Part shown: in pieces, positions 7,223 to 18,391 of the stretch
How the letters are laid out: each line of letters starts with the position of its first letter
How positions within the stretch are numbered: the stretch's first letter is position 1
NCBI GenBank assembly: GCA_003151775.1
Contig: PLYK01000132.1
Coordinates: 24,343-64,243, forward strand
Direction of reading: 5' to 3'
Source: Geobacter sp.
Lineage (GTDB): Bacteria; Desulfobacterota; Desulfuromonadia; Geobacterales; Pseudopelobacteraceae
DNA: 39,901 nucleotides
Notes under the pieces: model-generated
What the model saw: only the letters and a program-made list of their open reading frames with translations
The model's database searches: none
What the model was told of the DNA's origin: nothing
Program-made: the position numbers and the translations under genes

Positions 7223-7945
7223 CTATTTCATTGCACCCAGAAACAGCCCCTTTAGCCGTTCCCGTGGCAGGTTTGCCGGCACGTCTTCGGCAATCACCTT
7301 TCCCAGTGCCATGACATAGACCCGGTCGGCGATGGCGAAGACCGCATCGACATTCTGTTCAACTATGAGCATGGCTGTTTGGTATGAGTCTCGTATACCC
7401 CTGATCGTCGTGAAGCTCTTTTTCAGGGCTGCCGGTGCAAGGCCGAGGGAGGGCTCGTCGAGAAGGAGGAGCTTCGGCCGCAACATCAGCGCACGGCCGA
7501 GGGCGAGCATCTGCTTTTCGCCGCCACTCAGATCGCCGGCATCGTATTTTTGCCGTGCCGCCAGTTCGGGAAATAGGGCGAAGACTTCGGCCATGCGGGA
7601 GGTGGCAAGTCCCTTGTCCGTGAGGGTGTAGCCACCTATAGCAAGATTCTCGGTAACAGTCAGGTCGTCGAAGACCATATTCCCCTGCGGCGAGTAGGCT
7701 ATTCCGAGGGGCACGTTGTCGGACGGCTTGTTGCCGTTAATCCGTGCGCCGTGGTAAAGGATATCCCCCTTTCTGGCCGCCAGCATACCGATGACGCTTT
7801 TCAGCACCGTCGATTTCCCCGCGCCGTTCGGGCCGATGATGGCGACTATTTCACCCGGCATCACAGTTAGCGAGACACCTTGCAGAACCGGTTTCCGGTT
7901 GTAACCTGCTTCAAGGTCGATGATTTCCAGCACCGGTCCGCTCAT
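7223..7945 (-). CDS. livF: Branched-chain-type ABC transporter ATPase LivF
   Basis: Cytoplasmic ATPase of a branched-chain amino acid/amide-type (HAAT) importer, powering transport together with LivG. Walker A GPNGAGKST, signature LSGGEKQML and Walker B LLLLDEPSLGLAP are all present, followed by the switch His region in VEQNVDAV. Length (240 residues) is normal. It overlaps livG by four bases and is the last gene of the long minus-strand run. Codon use is GC-rich, like the flanking core genes and unlike the AT-rich genes upstream. The true substrate is uncertain, since HAAT systems also carry urea, amides or aromatic acids. Confidence 0.93.
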   Translation of the reverse strand: MSGPVLEIIDLEAGYNRKPVLQGVSLTVMPGEIVAIIGPNGAGKSTVLKSVIGMLAARKGDILYHGARINGNKPSDNVPLGIAYSPQGNMVFDDLTVTENLAIGGYTLTDKGLATSRMAEVFALFPELAARQKYDAGDLSGGEKQMLALGRALMLRPKLLLLDEPSLGLAPAALKKSFTTIRGIRDSYQTAMLIVEQNVDAVFAIADRVYVMALGKVIAEDVPANLPRERLKGLFLGAMK

Positions 7946-8667
7946 CCCAGATATGCCTCGATCACTTCGGAGTTCTCCCGCACCTGCGCGGGCTCGCCGT
8001 CAGCGATCACCCTCCCCCCCGCCATGACGATCAACCGGTCCGAAACCTCCATGACCGCTTCCATGTTGTGCTCGATGACAAGAACGCCGATTCCCTCGTC
8101 CCGCATGTCGCGCAGCAGGCCGAGGATCTTCACCGTCATCTCCTGGTTCACCCCGGCAACCGGCTCGTCGAGGAGCAGCAGGGCCGGATCGAGGGCGCGG
8201 CAGCAGGCGAGGTTCAGGAGCTTCTGTTGGCCGTAGGAAAGTTCACCCGCCGGCTCTTCGGCCTTGTCGGACAGCCCGACAAAGGCTAGAAGTTCCTGCG
8301 CCCGCTCACGGTTCTGCCGCTCCTTCCCCTTTTTCAGGGAAGCAAAGAGGGAAGCGCCGGGGTTGAAGGCGAGCATGACGTTGTCGAGGGTGGAGAGTTT
8401 CTTGATAGTGCGGAGGTTTTGAAAGGTACGTCCGATCCCGGCAGCGGCTACGGCATAGGGGGGCTTGCCCGTGATCTCCAGCGAGTTGAAGCAGATCAAG
8501 CCGCTGTCTGGCACGTGATAACCGCAGATCATGTTGAAGAGTGTCGTCTTTCCCGCGCCGTTGGGACCGATGAGGCCCGTGATTGCGCCTTTGGCTATGG
8601 TGCAGGAAACCTCCGTTACCGCTTTAACACCGTCGAAATGCTTGGTCACCCCTCTGATTTCAAGCAT
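7942..8667 (-). CDS. livG: Branched-chain-type ABC transporter ATPase LivG
   Basis: Second ATPase of the HAAT importer. Walker A GPNGAGKTTLFNM, the LivG-typical insertion GIGRTFQNLR, signature LSYGQQKLL and Walker B LLLLDEPVAGVN are visible, then VIEHNMEAVM. The C-terminal GEPAQVRENSEVIEAYLG is characteristic of LivG. Length (241 residues) is typical. It overlaps livM by eight bases and livF by four, so the three are translationally coupled. Function is inferred from the family; substrate specificity resides in the binding protein. Confidence 0.93.
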   Translation of the reverse strand: MLEIRGVTKHFDGVKAVTEVSCTIAKGAITGLIGPNGAGKTTLFNMICGYHVPDSGLICFNSLEITGKPPYAVAAAGIGRTFQNLRTIKKLSTLDNVMLAFNPGASLFASLKKGKERQNRERAQELLAFVGLSDKAEEPAGELSYGQQKLLNLACCRALDPALLLLDEPVAGVNQEMTVKILGLLRDMRDEGIGVLVIEHNMEAVMEVSDRLIVMAGGRVIADGEPAQVRENSEVIEAYLG

Positions 8668-9565
8668 CTTCTACTTCTTTACGCTCCTTGGGATGGGCGT
8701 TGAAGGCATATTCGCCGAACAGTCCTTGGGGGCGGTACATCATACAGAGGACCAGGAGCACGCCGTACAGTATCTGCCGCACGTTGGCGGCGACGGCGTT
8801 GGGAAGACCGACGAAACGGAGGATTTCCGGGAGTGAGACGAGGAAGGCGGCCCCGGCGACAGAGCCCTTGAGGCTTCCCGCACCGCCGATGATGACTATG
8901 GAGAGGATGAAGATCGACTCCATGACCGTGAAGCTCGTCGGGTCGATGTAGCTGATATAGACCGCATAGAGGCCGCCGCCGATGGATGCCAGGGCCGCGC
9001 CAATGACAAATGCTGCCATCTTGTAAGCGGTGACGTTCTTGCCGAGGGATTGGACGAAGATTTCGTCCTCCCGGATCGCCTTGAGAATTCTGCCGAAGGG
9101 GGAGTTGATGAGCCGGTTCAGGAAGAGGTAGACGGCGATACCTATCGCCGCGACGAGGCAGAGAAAGGCGCCGTGGGACGGCAGGGGAACGCCGAAGACG
9201 CTGGGCTGGGGAATGCCGGGGATGCCCATGGGGCCGCCGGTGAAGGAGACCCAGTTATTCAGGATGCTGAAGACGATGATTTGGAAGGCGAATGTGGTTA
9301 TTACGAAATAGTCGTCTCGGGTGCGGAGTGACGGCCAGGCGATGAGAAAGGCGATTGCTGCGGTCAGGATGACTCCTGTCGGGAGACAGAGCCAGAAGGG
9401 AATGCCTGCCTTGAGGGAGAGGAGCGCGGTCGTATACGCGCCGATTCCGTAGAAGGCAGCATGGGCCACGGAGATGAGGCCGGTGAAGCCTGCCGGGAGG
9501 TTCAGGGACATGGCGACGATGGAGTATATCCCGATCATGATGAGGATGTGGAGCAGGTACTCCAT
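8660..9565 (-). CDS. livM: Branched-chain-type ABC permease LivM
   Basis: Inner-membrane permease of the HAAT importer, forming the channel with LivH. The 301-residue protein has about eight hydrophobic segments. It carries LivM signatures: a start with SIVAMSLNLPAGFTGLISVA, the central FGRILKAIREDEIFVQSLG loop that couples to the ATPase, and IIGGAGSLKGSVAGAAFLV near the C-terminus. It ends YRPQGLFGEY, typical for the family. The start overlaps the livH stop by one base. Composition is GC-rich throughout. Confidence 0.92.
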   Translation of the reverse strand: MEYLLHILIMIGIYSIVAMSLNLPAGFTGLISVAHAAFYGIGAYTTALLSLKAGIPFWLCLPTGVILTAAIAFLIAWPSLRTRDDYFVITTFAFQIIVFSILNNWVSFTGGPMGIPGIPQPSVFGVPLPSHGAFLCLVAAIGIAVYLFLNRLINSPFGRILKAIREDEIFVQSLGKNVTAYKMAAFVIGAALASIGGGLYAVYISYIDPTSFTVMESIFILSIVIIGGAGSLKGSVAGAAFLVSLPEILRFVGLPNAVAANVRQILYGVLLVLCMMYRPQGLFGEYAFNAHPKERKEVEDA

Positions 9566-10452
9566 CAGACCTCCGCCTTACGTATCTTCTTGCCGAAGAA
9601 GCCCTGGGGTCTTAGGAGGAGGAAAAGGAGAAGGACGATGAAGGCGATGGCGTCCTGCCACTGAGAGGAGATTTTCCAGACGCCGAAGTTCTGGGCAAAG
9701 GCAAGGAGAAAGGCACCCAATGCAGCACCGGGGATACTACCCACCCCACCGATGATGACCGCCACGACCCCCATCATAAGGGCGTTCATTCCCATTGTCG
9801 GGGTCATGTCGGTGTCGAAGGAGATGAGGATTCCGGCTATACCCGCGAGGGCGGAGCCGATGGCGAAGGCGATTAGGATTACTTTGTCCGTGTCGATGCC
9901 GGTTACAAAAGCAAGTTCAGGATTGGCGGCGACTGCTCGCATATAGATTCCAATTCTTGTAAACCTCATACAAATCAGACACAAGATTACCAACGAAACA
10001 CCAACTACAATTGTCACCAGTTGGATAGGTGTTATACGGGCTCCAAGTATATCACTGCCTTCGGTGACCATTCCGTCTCTTATACTCTTTGTCTCATCAC
10101 CATAAATTAAAGAAATAATATTTTGCAAAATAATATAAATGCCAATAGAAGCAAGTAACAAGACCAAAGGAGAAGCAGTATTAAAACGCAGGTACCGGTA
10201 TGGTCCAAGCTCAACAAGGATTGCTATAAATAGCGTTAAAACTATTGCCAGCGGAATAGAATAGTATAGTGGAAGGTATAGAATGCGATATAAAAAGAAA
10301 ACCAAATATGGACCTAATGTATAAATAGCACCGTAACTAAAATTAAAAAATTTAGCAGTAGAATATATTATACAAAAGCTTACACCTATAATAGAATATG
10401 CACTTCCAGTTGCTATTGAATTTACTATCAATTGTATGCACGTATTACTCAT
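9565..10452 (-). CDS. livH: Branched-chain-type ABC permease LivH, mosaic composition
   Basis: Second permease of the importer, 295 residues with about eight membrane segments. Family landmarks are SIIGVSFCIIYSTAKFFNFS at the N-terminus, the coupling loop GIYMRAVAANPELAFVTGI and GGVGSIPGAALGAFLLA near the C-terminus. The oddity is composition. The N-terminal half (about 9950-10452) is strongly AT-rich, with many ATA and TTA codons. The C-terminal half uses GC-rich codons like livM. The reading frame is intact across the change. No clear Shine-Dalgarno precedes the ATG at 10452, so translation may depend on coupling to the binding-protein gene 11 bases upstream. A recombination joint within the gene is the simplest reading. 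Confidence 0.88.
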   Translation of the reverse strand: MSNTCIQLIVNSIATGSAYSIIGVSFCIIYSTAKFFNFSYGAIYTLGPYLVFFLYRILYLPLYYSIPLAIVLTLFIAILVELGPYRYLRFNTASPLVLLLASIGIYIILQNIISLIYGDETKSIRDGMVTEGSDILGARITPIQLVTIVVGVSLVILCLICMRFTRIGIYMRAVAANPELAFVTGIDTDKVILIAFAIGSALAGIAGILISFDTDMTPTMGMNALMMGVVAVIIGGVGSIPGAALGAFLLAFAQNFGVWKISSQWQDAIAFIVLLLFLLLRPQGFFGKKIRKAEV

Positions 10453-10463
10453 GATTGTTATAA

Positions 10464-11585
10464 TTATTGATTTAGTAATTTAAATTTGTTATTTGATACG
10501 ACATAAATTGATATATTCTTATTTTTATTATCACCATTGTTATTGAATTCGATCCGTCCGGTAACTCCATCAACAAAAAACCCTTGTTTTTTTATTTCAG
10601 ACACAATTCCTTTTCGGGATTTGTCTGTGGCCTTTTCTATAGCATTTATAATAACTTCCGCGGCATCATATCCCAGAGGTGCATAACTAACGACCTTACC
10701 ATATTTACGTTCATATTCTTTGAAGAATTTTACTGCCTTCGGGGAAACACCTCGATCAGGAGCAATAAAACTAACAATTGAACCCTCTCCAGCATTACCA
10801 GCCTGTTGCAAGAAGGCACTACCATAGCACCCATCGCCTGCAATCGCCGTGGCTTTTAACCCCATCTCTTTCATTTGCCTAACAAAAGGGGCACCCATAT
10901 CATATGTTGCTCCTATAACAACATACTTTGGATGCAACTCCTTGAGCTTTGCAATAAGCGTCTTGTAATCGCGTGACTCTTTTTTTGCGCCCTCAAAGGC
11001 CACAATATTTCCACCGGCAGACCTGAACTTATCACGAAAGGCATTGGCAAAGCCTAAACCGTAAGACGTTAAATCGTTCACAATTGCTACCGGCGCTATA
11101 GGATCTTTTGAAAGCAAGTATAATGCAAGAAACGGGGCTTGATCATCATCTGTGGGCGGGATCCTAAATAAGGATTGGTATCCTAATTGCGTAATTCTTG
11201 GGTTTGTAGGCACCGGCATTGCGACCGGCATTCCATTTTTTGCATAAACTTCTGCAGCGGCACTCATACAACCACTGGTTAAATGCCCGACAACAGCTAT
11301 ATATCGAGAATCTTGGCATATTTGATTGGCAATCGCGACGGCTGTTTTAGGGTCACCTTGATCATCAAACAATTGATAATGAATAATAGCGTTGCTGTCT
11401 AGATTGAGTTCATCAAAAGCCATTTTAGCTCCATTAGCAGTATCCTTACCATTTTCTGCAAGGGTTCCTGTAAGTGAGCTAACAATTGCTACATATACCG
11501 CAGGCTTACGAAATCCAAACGCAATAACGCCGGTAACAATGATCAATGAAATGCAAACAACAAGCCATGCATAATTCTTATTCAT
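10464..11585 (-). CDS. Branched-chain-type periplasmic binding protein
   Basis: A type I periplasmic binding protein of the Leu/Ile/Val (LivJ-like) family, the substrate-capture component for the adjacent LivHMGF. An N-terminal hydrophobic segment (residues 4-24) acts as signal or membrane anchor and has no lipobox. The mature part starts VYVAIVSSLTGTLAENGKD and includes AVVGHLTSGCMSAAAEVY and the hinge regions typical of the fold. It ends in an Asn/Lys-rich strand. The start at 11585 is preferred over 11600 because AGGAGGG sits just upstream. It lies 24 bases after the radical SAM gene. Composition is lower in GC than livM-livG-livF, so it belongs to the imported part of the run. The ligand is unknown. 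Confidence 0.88.
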   Translation of the reverse strand: MNKNYAWLVVCISLIIVTGVIAFGFRKPAVYVAIVSSLTGTLAENGKDTANGAKMAFDELNLDSNAIIHYQLFDDQGDPKTAVAIANQICQDSRYIAVVGHLTSGCMSAAAEVYAKNGMPVAMPVPTNPRITQLGYQSLFRIPPTDDDQAPFLALYLLSKDPIAPVAIVNDLTSYGLGFANAFRDKFRSAGGNIVAFEGAKKESRDYKTLIAKLKELHPKYVVIGATYDMGAPFVRQMKEMGLKATAIAGDGCYGSAFLQQAGNAGEGSIVSFIAPDRGVSPKAVKFFKEYERKYGKVVSYAPLGYDAAEVIINAIEKATDKSRKGIVSEIKKQGFFVDGVTGRIEFNNNGDNKNKNISIYVVSNNKFKLLNQ

Positions 11586-11609
11586 ATTCTCCCTCCTCAT
11601 CCGAAGAAA

Positions 11610-12881
11610 TTAGCCCTTCATTTCTGTCTCTAAATCTCGAAGGTTTTGAACATGCTCCGCTACTTTAGCCTCCCAACCTATTGGAAGTAAGTCGCCAGCT
11701 CTGTCACGGAATGGGCATCCATGATAAATACCGTATCCTTTGTATCCAATTGAATTAAAGGGAATGCTATTATAAGCAAATCCATGTTTCTTATAATGAT
11801 TGCGGTATGGATTGTTCGCAATTGCCTTAATAAGTGCATACTCTTGGTGAACATTACCCAAATAATTGTTATCAGTACCGTCAGTCTCATCTGGGCAACC
11901 GCAACAAGGATATATTCTTCCTCGTGCATTAATGTAAAGTCCATAGGGCAACTGCGAGCATGGCAAACCGCCTAAGTATGGTGACGCACCCCCAAAAGGA
12001 ATACCTAATTCTTCATTTAACGAATAAATTCCCTCAGCAATTTTGAGCATTCGCTCCTTTGAAATGTATAAACCGCGTCGCTTTCTCCAGTCTGCATTTC
12101 GTGTAAGCCCAACCGGCACGGGAGGATCAAGATCAACAAAAATGCGTCGTTCTGCTTTAAGCCGGTATATTTTCTCTATATCATCTATACCTTGTGGGGT
12201 AATAACACTTTCAAGTCCCAACCGAGTCCAACCCGTTGGGCTATCCTCAGCTGCAACGCCGGTCATTATAAGTTTCTCCTCTTCACAGGAAAATACAGGC
12301 GGTTCGTTGAAGCCAACTGCAATCAACTGCTCAAGAATATGATTTCGTTTTTCGGCATATCCCTTAAGACCAACAAGACTGTCCTCTTTATCGTTGTTGA
12401 AGGAGTGAAACTTCAACATTATGCTGACACGTAATTTTTTTAGATATTCGATAAGTTCACGTGGCTTAAGACCATGTACTTTCAAACATTGTGACTCGTC
12501 AGCCAATATCGAACCATTGGTAAAAACGACCATCCACATATTAAGCATTTCACTTGCAAACTCTATGAAATCGACAAAACCGCTCTCTTGGAATGGTTCC
12601 TGATCACCAACTAGTTTAGCACTTTTACATCCTAATGTGGCGGCATCCTTAAAAATAGACTTAAGTTGTTCAATATTCAATTTTGAAAGGCTGCCTTGCT
12701 TGTTTCTGACAAATTCGCGCTCGTCTGTCTCAACAAAACAATAACGACACTTGAGGTTGCATTTATTCTGACATGGATAATCAAAGTCCATGGTTAGCAG
12801 TGCAATGGCTTCTCTATCAATATATTTTTTTATGGTTGCTTCAGGGTATTGCCAACCAATCAGTGAGTTAACCCAAGTCAT
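11610..12881 (-). CDS. Radical SAM protein with SPASM-like C-terminus
   Basis: A 423-residue radical S-adenosylmethionine enzyme. The cluster motif CNLKCRYC (Cys41, 45, 48) binds the [4Fe-4S] cluster that cleaves SAM. The following LKSIFKDAATLGCKSAKLVGDQEPF fits the SAM-binding barrel. The C-terminal third has more cysteines (LPCSQLPYGLYI, YPCCGCPDE, HGCPF), which look like a SPASM or twitch-type auxiliary cluster domain. The substrate is unknown. No small precursor-peptide gene lies next to it, since the gaps on both sides are under 30 bases. GGAAG is positioned before the start. It is tightly packed between a membrane protein gene and a transporter binding-protein gene, an unusual setting. 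It could modify a peptide, a nucleoside or a transported molecule. Confidence 0.85.
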   Translation of the reverse strand: MTWVNSLIGWQYPEATIKKYIDREAIALLTMDFDYPCQNKCNLKCRYCFVETDEREFVRNKQGSLSKLNIEQLKSIFKDAATLGCKSAKLVGDQEPFQESGFVDFIEFASEMLNMWMVVFTNGSILADESQCLKVHGLKPRELIEYLKKLRVSIMLKFHSFNNDKEDSLVGLKGYAEKRNHILEQLIAVGFNEPPVFSCEEEKLIMTGVAAEDSPTGWTRLGLESVITPQGIDDIEKIYRLKAERRIFVDLDPPVPVGLTRNADWRKRRGLYISKERMLKIAEGIYSLNEELGIPFGGASPYLGGLPCSQLPYGLYINARGRIYPCCGCPDETDGTDNNYLGNVHQEYALIKAIANNPYRNHYKKHGFAYNSIPFNSIGYKGYGIYHGCPFRDRAGDLLPIGWEAKVAEHVQNLRDLETEMKG

Positions 12882-14830: not shown

Positions 14831-15844
14831 TCACCGACAACTGCTAAACATTATTTTGATGTCATCAATTCGATACTGAGAAACATCCTTCCCCATCACC
14901 TTAGTATCATTAAATATCGCATAATTTATCCCCGGCCCCATCGCGCTGCGATAAATAACGCCATCATAACCAATCGTCTTTATATACTCGCACAGATACT
15001 GACTCGGCAAATATTCAAGGTGCGCGAAGTGCGGCAATACCGGCATAGTCAACTCCTCACCCAGCCGGCACAGATACTCCATATAACGCCGGAACAGTTT
15101 CAGAATGGTATCGTCAAGCTCAAAAGGCGAAACGGTCTTGCGCGGGTTCTGCAGATCAATCAACTTCAACGAATCTTCCACATCGAGCTCGGCAACGCAA
15201 ACCAATTCGCCCTTATGAGGCCTGATTTCGGCTACTGCCGTCGCGGCATCAGAGGCGACATACAGACACGGTATCCCGACAGGATTGGCCCGCCCGTTTC
15301 CGGCCTGCTTCTCCGGCGGCTTTCCCATCTGGTCGATGGAATACAGATCCTGCTGGTCACACATCCTGGCGCGGTAAACCTTGGCTGGGGCTCTTCCCTG
15401 TAAAAATTCAAAAGGCTTTTCAATTTCCTGTATCTTCTTGATGTTTTTCGGGAAGTAGCGGTTTCGATGCTTCAATTCTTCTCGAAAATCCTCCCATTCC
15501 TGGACCGCAGATGCATCGTTCTCCACGACCGGGGCATATTTCTTGTGGAAGATTGTGTTATCGTCGAATATCAGCACCAACAGGGTTTCGGCCTTGACCG
15601 GGTCGAGTCTGTCAAAAAGGCCCCAATCACTGCGTATAAGCGCTTCCAGGCTCGAAGCATCAGGAGAACCGCTTTCCTCGTAAACTCCGATCAAAGCTTC
15701 AAAATAATCCACCAGCTCAGGCGGATCAATGAGCTTGACACCTCGGCTACCACAATACTCGCAATCCCCGGTTTCCTTGGCGGATTGTTCAATCTGTCGA
15801 GCAAGAAAGTTATCGCCTATACAGTTACCGCAACACTTCTTCAT
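14831..15844 (-). CDS. RES-domain protein with N-terminal zinc-ribbon and helical domain
   Basis: A 337-residue protein ending in a RES domain, a family known in RES-Xre toxin-antitoxin systems as NAD+-degrading toxins. Expected key residues are visible: Arg158 (VYRARM), Ser198 (LYVASDA) and Glu206 (AVAEIRPH), with GRANPVGIP before them. The N-terminus has two CxxC pairs (Cys5/8 and Cys28/31), a likely zinc ribbon, followed by a helical region of about 100 residues of the kind annotated as HEPN/RES N-terminal. No Xre-type antitoxin gene is adjacent. The ATG lies four bases after the stop of the sce7725-like gene, so translation is coupled. It is larger than plain RES toxins, so activity may be gated by the N-terminal part. 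NAD+ degradation is inferred from the family. Confidence 0.82.
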   Translation of the reverse strand: MKKCCGNCIGDNFLARQIEQSAKETGDCEYCGSRGVKLIDPPELVDYFEALIGVYEESGSPDASSLEALIRSDWGLFDRLDPVKAETLLVLIFDDNTIFHKKYAPVVENDASAVQEWEDFREELKHRNRYFPKNIKKIQEIEKPFEFLQGRAPAKVYRARMCDQQDLYSIDQMGKPPEKQAGNGRANPVGIPCLYVASDAATAVAEIRPHKGELVCVAELDVEDSLKLIDLQNPRKTVSPFELDDTILKLFRRYMEYLCRLGEELTMPVLPHFAHLEYLPSQYLCEYIKTIGYDGVIYRSAMGPGINYAIFNDTKVMGKDVSQYRIDDIKIMFSSCR

Positions 15845-15848
15845 CTGC

Positions 15849-16790
15849 TTACGCCCCGAGGAAGTGCTCGATCAACTCGATATGATGCTGCATGGAAAGC
15901 TTCTTTGCGTAGCCGAGACCGGGATAGTGTTCCTGCTCATGTAAGGTCATATACTCCTGAACGGCTTCTGAGCGGAAGATCATCGAACCGCGGCGGTTTA
16001 CATCGTCAACAAGTTTCTGCAACGCCTCCAGGAATTTCCCCCTGGGATCGACCGGAGAATTTGTCCGATCCGACACGTAATGCTTAATGTACATGTCATT
16101 ATCTTCGTTGCTGTGGAGATAGGTCAGATGGATGGCAACCGCGTATGCCGGACCACCGGTTTCCATGTAATCATCTCCCACTATCAGAAAGTCCCCGAAG
16201 CCGTTTACACCCTCATCCATGTACGTTATGTGGAGGTCCGAGAAATGCTCTCCTTCGGGATGCTCCCGATTCTTCCGGTGGATAAAACCGTCGCGGATGA
16301 GAATACGTTGATTGTCCCTGAAATGACGGCGATACAGACGGCTGCAAAACTGTTCGATGAAGATATGGTTTGTGATGACATCATAACTGGCCAAGGCTTC
16401 ACCTAGTTCCCTGCTCCCCTCTGCGTAGCCGTAGTGGATAATGCTGACTGGCTTGGTCTGAGCAGCGCAAAAGGCCTGAATGTCAGCCAGCGATGAATCT
16501 TCACTGATGATGTAGCCTATGGAAAATTTGTCATAGTCGGAGAGGAGATCATCGATTATTTCGTCAAAAAGAAGGGTGCCGTCGTTTCGCAGTTCTCCGT
16601 AAACCGGATTGACTATGAGAGTGAAGCGTGTGTTGTGTTCGACCAATTTTTCGATTGTGCGGGAAAGTCCGGAAAGGTTACGTTTGACCGGCTCTATGAT
16701 GGGGATGATATTGGCGCGGGCCATCCGTTCCGCATTCTCCCGGATGGTGATCAGGTCATACTGTTTCCCGCGAAAATAGGGATAATACAT
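15849..16790 (-). CDS. sce7725 family protein (T4 beta protein-like)
   Basis: A 313-residue protein starting MYYPYFRGKQYDLITIREN. This resembles the sce7725 family and, more distantly, phage T4-type beta proteins with a probable TIM-barrel-like fold. Recurrent strand-helix units are visible (IIPIIEPVKRN, TLIVNPVYGE, SIGYIISED, VSIIHYG, NHIFIEQ). The molecular function of the family is not known to me. The sce7725 and sce7726 names come from neighbouring Sorangium cellulosum loci, and the two families are also adjacent here, which supports both calls. AGGAGGG just before the ATG is a strong ribosome-binding site. Gaps to the neighbours are 19 and 4 bases. A role in conflict or defence is inference from its partners. 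Confidence 0.75.
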   Translation of the reverse strand: MYYPYFRGKQYDLITIRENAERMARANIIPIIEPVKRNLSGLSRTIEKLVEHNTRFTLIVNPVYGELRNDGTLLFDEIIDDLLSDYDKFSIGYIISEDSSLADIQAFCAAQTKPVSIIHYGYAEGSRELGEALASYDVITNHIFIEQFCSRLYRRHFRDNQRILIRDGFIHRKNREHPEGEHFSDLHITYMDEGVNGFGDFLIVGDDYMETGGPAYAVAIHLTYLHSNEDNDMYIKHYVSDRTNSPVDPRGKFLEALQKLVDDVNRRGSMIFRSEAVQEYMTLHEQEHYPGLGYAKKLSMQHHIELIEHFLGA

Positions 16791-16809
16791 GCACCCTCCT
16801 CAGTAGAAA

Positions 16810-17739
16810 CTACGTCAATGCAAGGCAATCTCCGATATCTGCATTCAATGCGTCAACAAACCGCTCTTGCTCGGCACAGCCCAACCGGCAGTAGAGCGAC
16901 AGCGCCTTCAGTGAGGGTGGGACCGCCGTGATGAATTCGTGCAGCCGCCGGCTGTTTCCCCGTTTTTTCAAGACCTTCACCATGGAATCATGTGCCGCTT
17001 CCGGAGAGAGGGAACAGAAATGCTCACGACAGGCCTGATACATGCGGGCATTGGAGACATTCGGTACAGCGCCGAAATGCGTTTTGACAATCTGTTCATA
17101 CTCACTACTTCTCAGGGAATCAAAGATCACCGCTGGTTGCGCCGCATGCTTCAACGATACAGGGACGCGGACGGTACGAATAGTGTTGCGGTCGGTGAGG
17201 ACCAAGAGGCCGATATCCTCTCCCACCGCTCTTGCCACCTTTTCCGCTTGCGAGGCGGACGTTATCACGTTAATCTTGTCGAAGACCTGCCGGTAGGCAG
17301 CTACCTGGCGGGACAGGCGCTCCATGCTGTCATAGGCGGACTTGATTTCGTACACTGTGCTGGTCCCATTGAGAAGCACCGTGTCCGCTTTGCAGTTCCC
17401 GGCGCGGAACTCCGTCAGCATGCAGGTAGTGGTAAGCGAATGCACCCCGAGCAGGATTTTCTGGGCGATGACGTTCTTGTATATGTATTCGTTCCGGTAC
17501 GACCGGAACATGAGCGCATAGACCTGGTCGAAGAACTCCCGCAAGGGGATTGCCGGATCAAGAACATGCACGAAGGCAGCTTCCCTGAGAATGGCCGCCG
17601 CCATGGACGAACGGCCCGTCGCGGCAAGCTCTTTTATGACAGTTGTCGAAAAGAGCCGCGCCAGGGTTGGCCCGTGAAACGATGATGATTTTAGTGTTGT
17701 TCTGTTCATATATTCAGAATAGCTCATCCAGCCATGCAA
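16810..17739 (-). CDS. sce7726 family protein, PD-(D/E)XK nuclease-like
   Basis: First gene of the ten-gene run, matching the sce7726 family by recognition of its pattern. The central region contains a nuclease-like signature: Asp119 in NCKADTVLL, then Glu131 and Lys133 in VYEIKSAYD, with an upstream Glu in RNEYIYKNVI. This is the D...ExK pattern of PD-(D/E)XK enzymes, which cleave nucleic acids. The helix after ExK (RLSRQVAAYRQVFDKINVIT) fits restriction-like folds. Start choice is uncertain: ATGs at 17739, 17727 and 17709 are in frame and none has a strong Shine-Dalgarno. A good promoter lies about 200 bases upstream. Nuclease activity is a prediction from the motif only. Confidence 0.75.
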   Translation of the reverse strand: MHGWMSYSEYMNRTTLKSSSFHGPTLARLFSTTVIKELAATGRSSMAAAILREAAFVHVLDPAIPLREFFDQVYALMFRSYRNEYIYKNVIAQKILLGVHSLTTTCMLTEFRAGNCKADTVLLNGTSTVYEIKSAYDSMERLSRQVAAYRQVFDKINVITSASQAEKVARAVGEDIGLLVLTDRNTIRTVRVPVSLKHAAQPAVIFDSLRSSEYEQIVKTHFGAVPNVSNARMYQACREHFCSLSPEAAHDSMVKVLKKRGNSRRLHEFITAVPPSLKALSLYCRLGCAEQERFVDALNADIGDCLALT

Positions 17740-18011: not shown

Positions 18012-18036
18012 ATTTTGCAGACAGCGTCTGCAAAAT
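18012..18036. terminator. Hairpin after the selenoprotein gene, possible terminator
   Basis: A perfect 11-bp inverted repeat (ATTTTGCAGAC, loop AGC, then its complement) lies 45 bases beyond the stop of the selenoprotein gene. A/T-rich stem ends could serve as part of a bidirectional terminator. There is no long U-tract outside the stem, so the call is tentative. Confidence 0.45.
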
Positions 18037-18080: not shown

Positions 18081-18335
18081 TTATTCAACTTCAATCTCCG
18101 CCAGCATATCCAAGGCAAAATTCTTGGCCCTGCCGCCGGGTGCGATCGCGCCGTAGGCGATCGCCTCACGGAGTTCAGCGTCCGTGGCGCCATAGGACTT
18201 CGCGGCCGCGAAGTGCTTCTTCAGTCAGGTGGGGCACCCCACGGCGATGGCGCACCCCACGCGGATCAGTTCGCGCGTGCGGCCGTCCAGCACCTCTTCA
18301 TACTCGTAGTCGAGAAACTTCTTGCGGATTTTCAT
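18081..18335 (-). CDS. AhpD-like (CMD family) selenoprotein with in-frame UGA
   Basis: An 84-residue carboxymuconolactone decarboxylase/AhpD-family protein whose frame is interrupted only by TGA at 18225-18227 (codon 37). Reading it as selenocysteine gives VGCPTULKKHF, that is Cys34-x-x-Sec37-x-x-x-His41. This matches the catalytic CxxC-x3-H pattern of AhpD, with Sec in place of the second Cys. Family-typical sequence continues smoothly after the codon (SYGATDAELREAIAYGAIAPGG) to a TAA at 18081. A strong AAGGAGG precedes the ATG, and a SECIS-like hairpin follows the UGA at suitable spacing. AhpD-like selenoproteins are known in Geobacter-type bacteria. The likely role is thiol/selenol redox or peroxide defence in the cytoplasm. 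It follows glnE by 55 bases. Annotation software would split or miss it. Confidence 0.88.
18198..18227 (-). promoter_or_regulatory. Bacterial SECIS-like element and UGA Sec codon
   Basis: UGA occupies 18225-18227. After 17 nt (which include the 5' arm) comes the apical loop GGCC (18204-18207), closed by the six-pair stem CUUCGC/GCGAAG (18208-18213 and 18198-18203). Bacterial SECIS elements place a short loop, with G in its first two positions, about 16-37 nt after the UGA, and this hairpin meets both criteria. It would bind SelB. Confidence 0.8.
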
Positions 18336-18355: not shown

Positions 18356-18391
18356 AGGGACTCGGAATTAACTGATATACTCCGAGTCCCT
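18356..18391 (-). promoter_or_regulatory. Hairpin between glnE and the selenoprotein gene
   Basis: A perfect 11-bp inverted repeat (AGGGACTCGGA, 18356-18366 and 18381-18391) starts at the last base of the glnE stop codon and ends just before the AAGGAGG of the selenoprotein gene. No U-tract follows, so it is more likely an mRNA-processing, stability or attenuating structure than a full terminator. Confidence 0.55.

Follow-up and report, generated by a model that had tools for sequence, protein, structure and literature searches.

Gene organization of the locus

The window, a stretch of 39,901 nucleotides, carries a small gene of the GSU3128 family in which a single UGA interrupts the frame. 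The features that define the locus are as follows.

18335-18081, minus strand: GSU3128-family AhpD-like selenoprotein gene, 84 codons plus TAA, assigned from NF041047, Pfam CMD, and Oryzomonas orthologues
18348-18344, minus strand: Shine-Dalgarno sequence GGAGG, 8 nt before the ATG
18227-18225, minus strand: in-frame UGA, very probably selenocysteine (Sec) residue 37, the last of CxxU, assigned from the sequence and homologue comparison
18214-18197, minus strand: SECIS-like hairpin ACUUCGC-GGCC-GCGAAGU, with a 7-bp stem and zero synonymous variation in codons 41 to 46
21561-18391, minus strand: glnE, directly upstream of the gene, assigned from Pfam GlnE and NF008292

Read on the minus strand, the gene begins with an ATG at 18335-18333 and ends with a TAA at 18083-18081. 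The UGA, at codon 37, is the sole in-frame stop ahead of this TAA and breaks the frame under translation table 11. Reading through it gives the motif C34-P-T-U37-L-K-K-H41, that is, CxxUxxxH. An earlier reading made from the sequence only had described this same Cys-x-x-Sec-x-x-x-His pattern, and it was also correct on the 84-codon frame, the strong Shine-Dalgarno sequence, and the position of the UGA; the minus strand, which it did not give, is added here. A purine-rich, Shine-Dalgarno-like sequence precedes most orthologues as well.

The upstream gene glnE also adjoins the orthologue in many relatives (L006, L007, L015, L018-L023, L026-L028, and others), and the two genes are possibly cotranscribed. 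As glnE is the sole recurrent neighbor, found in some relatives, with unrelated neighbors in other clades, the neighborhood gives no functional hint. Perfect 11-bp inverted repeats lie on both sides of the gene, at 18356-18391 and 18012-18036. The first of these, in the space that separates the gene from glnE, resembles a small insertion, since it is absent from the Oryzomonas loci L006 and L007, where the Shine-Dalgarno sequence directly follows the glnE stop codon.

Just downstream, an island on the minus strand (14831-17739) encodes in series a RES-domain protein (HEPN/RES N-terminal) and proteins of the sce7725 and sce7726 families, the last of which matches the PADLOC "cll" model with 60 bits. 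None of these three genes turned up next to the orthologue in those relatives that were searched. The region 7223-12881, also on the minus strand, holds genes for branched-chain amino acid ABC transport, which encode two ATPases, two permeases, and a binding protein; positions 11610-12881 encode a radical-SAM/SPASM protein.

Family assignment and conservation of the UGA codon

The 84-amino-acid product matches NCBIfam model NF041047, "GSU3128 family (seleno)protein," with 145.5 bits (cut-off, 110; E value, 3.6e-43). Residues 1 to 82 align with positions 1 to 83 of the 84 in the model. The product also matches Pfam CMD (55.4 bits) and the AhpD core domain TIGR00778 (35.4 bits; cut-off, 27.8). 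Its closest relatives are Oryzomonas orthologues with 95% identity, which makes the host a relative of Geobacter. The gene is a GSU3128-family selenoprotein gene, and it is not new: the family has been known as such since 2006, when Geobacter sulfurreducens and G. uraniireducens were reported to have a "distant AhpD homolog" as one of their selenoproteins (PMC1794560). It has also been listed with CxxU (PMC9312934), and NF041047 was named as a CxxU selenoprotein family in 2026 (PMC13188914). The earlier reading had called the gene hidden, but with this published record and its recognition by NF041047 it does not escape present-day annotation. Its family is a short and distant relative of AhpD, not AhpD proper.

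The comparison covered 58 genomes with a match over the NF041047 cut-off, made up of 48 in the taxonomic family and 16 in a sample of the phylum, 6 of them shared. Exactly one TGA is present in all 58, and the UGA lies at codon 37 in each of the 71 loci that were inspected in detail. Over the NF041047 cut-off, no sequence with Cys at this site was seen; CxxC occupies the aligned place in nine more distant superfamily relatives (L090-L098) and in L031. The check proposed earlier, a search for homologues in which codon 37 specifies Cys or Sec, thus succeeded, and the residue that relatives carry in place of Sec is Cys, not Trp. Downstream of the UGA the protein is conserved, with ordinary synonymous change in its codons.

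A conserved hairpin follows the UGA

The hairpin stem starts 10 nt past the UGA and the GGCC loop (18207-18204) 17 nt past it, the latter being exactly the distance that the sequence-only reading had given; the structure is conserved across homologues. Synonymous variation was compared with the expectation from codon usage in 45 distinct nucleotide sequences, with genus g7 left out. Codons 41 to 46 (CAC TTC GCG GNC GCG AAG) present zero synonymous changes across these sequences, and the ratio of observed to expected synonymous diversity is 0.83 for codons 1 to 36 and 0.81 for codons 47 to 82. The lowest six-codon windows all overlap the hairpin stretch, and when six other codons were drawn at random 20,000 times, no draw was as low. 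This pattern indicates that the third bases of codons 41 to 46 are fixed by the RNA and not by the protein.

Across the 45 sequences outside g7 the stem measures 6 to 7 bp and the loop starts 17 nt after the UGA, with the loop variants GGUC, GGCC, and GGGC, in which the first base is always G. Because the stem codons are invariant in this set, there is no covariation to count. A small apical loop with a guanosine is the criterion for a bacterial SECIS (PMC1088965), and the GGCC-loop hairpin has both; the same hairpin is kept in five more distant UGA relatives (L085-L089). A search of the window with Rfam returned nothing at gathering thresholds. Folded by itself, the 49-nt region has an unremarkable energy (z = 0.47), and single-sequence folding was set aside as uninformative evidence for a SECIS.

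Genus g7, which belongs to the same taxonomic family, shows a different arrangement. Four of its loci (L052, L053, L058, and L064) present a stem of 6 to 8 bp whose GGCA loop lies 20 nt past the UGA; on inspection of their sequences, the usual stem, with a 17-nt distance to the loop, is absent. Both hairpins can form in L044, an apparent intermediate. In L045-L049 and L051 the 17-nt stem is retained, and its loop is CCUG or UCUG. The residues under the moving RNA are changed too, with Phe42 replaced by Tyr or Ala and Glu47 by Ala. There is about an even chance that in g7 the SECIS slid one codon downstream and pulled the protein residues along. The displacement may be a new observation and, if true, this subclade would allow a direct measurement of how RNA signal and protein sequence are traded off against each other.

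Selenocysteine machinery in the host and in relatives

The genome from which the window comes is 84% complete and contains selA (608 bits), selB (375 bits), selD (360 bits), and a tRNA-Sec with anticodon UCA (73 bits) located 130 bp upstream of selB. The four genes selA, selB, selC, and selD, whose presence had been proposed as a check, are thus all there. Neither of the findings named beforehand as telling against a selenoprotein, namely, missing sel genes and close homologues without Cys or Sec at the site, applies here. The selD gene (L041, C48:7307-8230) is itself a selenoprotein gene, with TGA at the active-site codon (AAG-U-AAK).

In the 76 genomes of the taxonomic family, selA scores over its cut-off in 44 of 48 carriers of the gene versus 16 of 28 noncarriers. 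Two of the carriers without selA, G008 and G036, were rejected as counterexamples; both are 66% complete bins that have selB, to which G036 adds tRNA-Sec and a selD that contains UGA. A third, G017, looks nearly complete and has no selA and neither selB nor tRNA-Sec over the cut-off. It keeps a formate dehydrogenase with one UGA, so that this bin probably lacks some contigs, and it was likewise not retained as a counterexample to the Sec reading. No such hint is present in G027, a 99% complete MAG in which SelA is absent, SelB and tRNA-Sec give nothing over the cut-off, and SelD has Cys. Its gene, with an intact hairpin, sits on a 290-kb contig (L065, the same as L017). Missing contigs or a recent loss of the Sec system, which would leave a stranded selenoprotein gene, could explain this pattern, and a near-complete MAG that carries the gene without detectable Sec machinery may be a new observation.

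Predicted fold and proposed redox mechanism

The spacing of Glu22, Cys34, Sec37, and His41 equals that of Glu118, Cys130, Cys133, and His137 of Mycobacterium tuberculosis AhpD, whose five-residue relay also includes His132 (PMC3141380). The residue matching His132 is Thr36, and the relay is incomplete. A sequence search of the PDB retrieved 3bey, 7y4r (RclX), and 5dik (AhpD) as solved relatives. The AlphaFold model is all-helical, with a mean pLDDT of 78.8 and an unreliable stretch of 12 residues at the N terminus, and its best Foldseek matches are these same CMD/AhpD structures, with weak E values (best, 5e-3).

Taken as a whole, the data are almost certainly best explained by SelB-dependent insertion of Sec into a GSU3128-family thiol/selenol oxidoreductase. 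The involvement of SelB is deduced from the conserved hairpin together with the full set of sel genes. SelB loaded with Sec-tRNA(UCA) would bind the hairpin, whose start lies 10 nt past codon 37, and the UGA would be decoded as Sec rather than as a stop. The product would be a short, all-helical protein of the CMD/AhpD type in which a helix begins with the redox pair C34-P-T-U37, Sec37 replaces the second Cys of AhpD, and Glu22 and His41 are predicted to assist. Such a pair could reduce a peroxide or a protein disulfide, leaving a Cys34-Sec37 selenenylsulfide that a dithiol donor would then re-reduce. From its fold and residues, the protein is most likely a thiol/selenol oxidoreductase, either a disulfide reductase or a peroxidase.

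Alternative explanations

The broken frame under table 11 and the ordinary folding energy of the region are what would be expected if the UGA were a genuine stop codon or a sequencing mistake, which would make the frame a pseudogene or a pair of short peptides. The same UGA is, however, found in all of the loci inspected and all of the genomes over the cut-off, and the protein remains conserved past it with ordinary synonymous change; conservation on either side of the UGA refutes a stop or an error, whose probability is practically nil. Decoding as another amino acid, by a near-cognate Trp or Cys tRNA or by general read-through, would fit G027, which keeps the gene and hairpin but has a Cys-containing SelD, no SelA, and neither SelB nor tRNA-Sec over the cut-off. 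Against it stand the full Sec machinery of the host genome, a hairpin constraint that is limited to the codons used by a bacterial SECIS, and the Cys, rather than Trp, found at the site in relatives, and such decoding is extremely unlikely. The UGA is very probably read as Sec at residue 37.

A selenoprotein could also be a metabolic carboxymuconolactone decarboxylase instead of a redox protein, as the Pfam name of the domain (CMD) and weak matches to PcaC models would suggest. The score with the PcaC model TIGR02425 is nevertheless 27.7 bits, far under its cut-off of 155.7, and the protein retains CxxU and, from the AhpD relay, Glu and His, whereas members of the gamma-CMD group are without CxxC (PMC3141380). 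Among the neighbors in the loci read, no genes for aromatic degradation were seen. A decarboxylase is accordingly highly unlikely, and an oxidoreductase with Sec37 in its active site is preferred.

Comparison with known systems

At 84 amino acids, the GSU3128 family offers a compact model of Sec insertion, in which one 18-nt hairpin overlaps conserved active-site codons and is almost unchanged across a class of bacteria. The locus further illustrates that a true UGA-recoded gene can be recovered from raw sequence without tools.

The protein has in common with AhpD of the M. tuberculosis type the helical core and the arrangement E-x11-C-x2-C/U-x3-H, but it differs in its length of only 84 residues, in having Sec for the second Cys, and in having Thr for His132; ahpC was not seen among its neighbors in the loci read. 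RclX (7y4r), 3bey, and 5dik, short redox proteins of the CMD type, are its best solved relatives, both by sequence and by model, with approximately 31 to 38% identity in structural alignments, and unlike the window protein they contain Cys. AhpD-like 1 and AhpD-like 2 of marine metagenomes share CxxU in a protein of the AhpD/CMD type and are listed as separate families (COG2128; pfam02627) (PMC2398784). With the GSU3128 family itself (NF041047), the gene shares the whole length, CxxU at residues 34 to 37, and the host group, and it shows no difference that matters; the window is set apart by a small inverted repeat of 11 bp in the glnE-to-gene interval.
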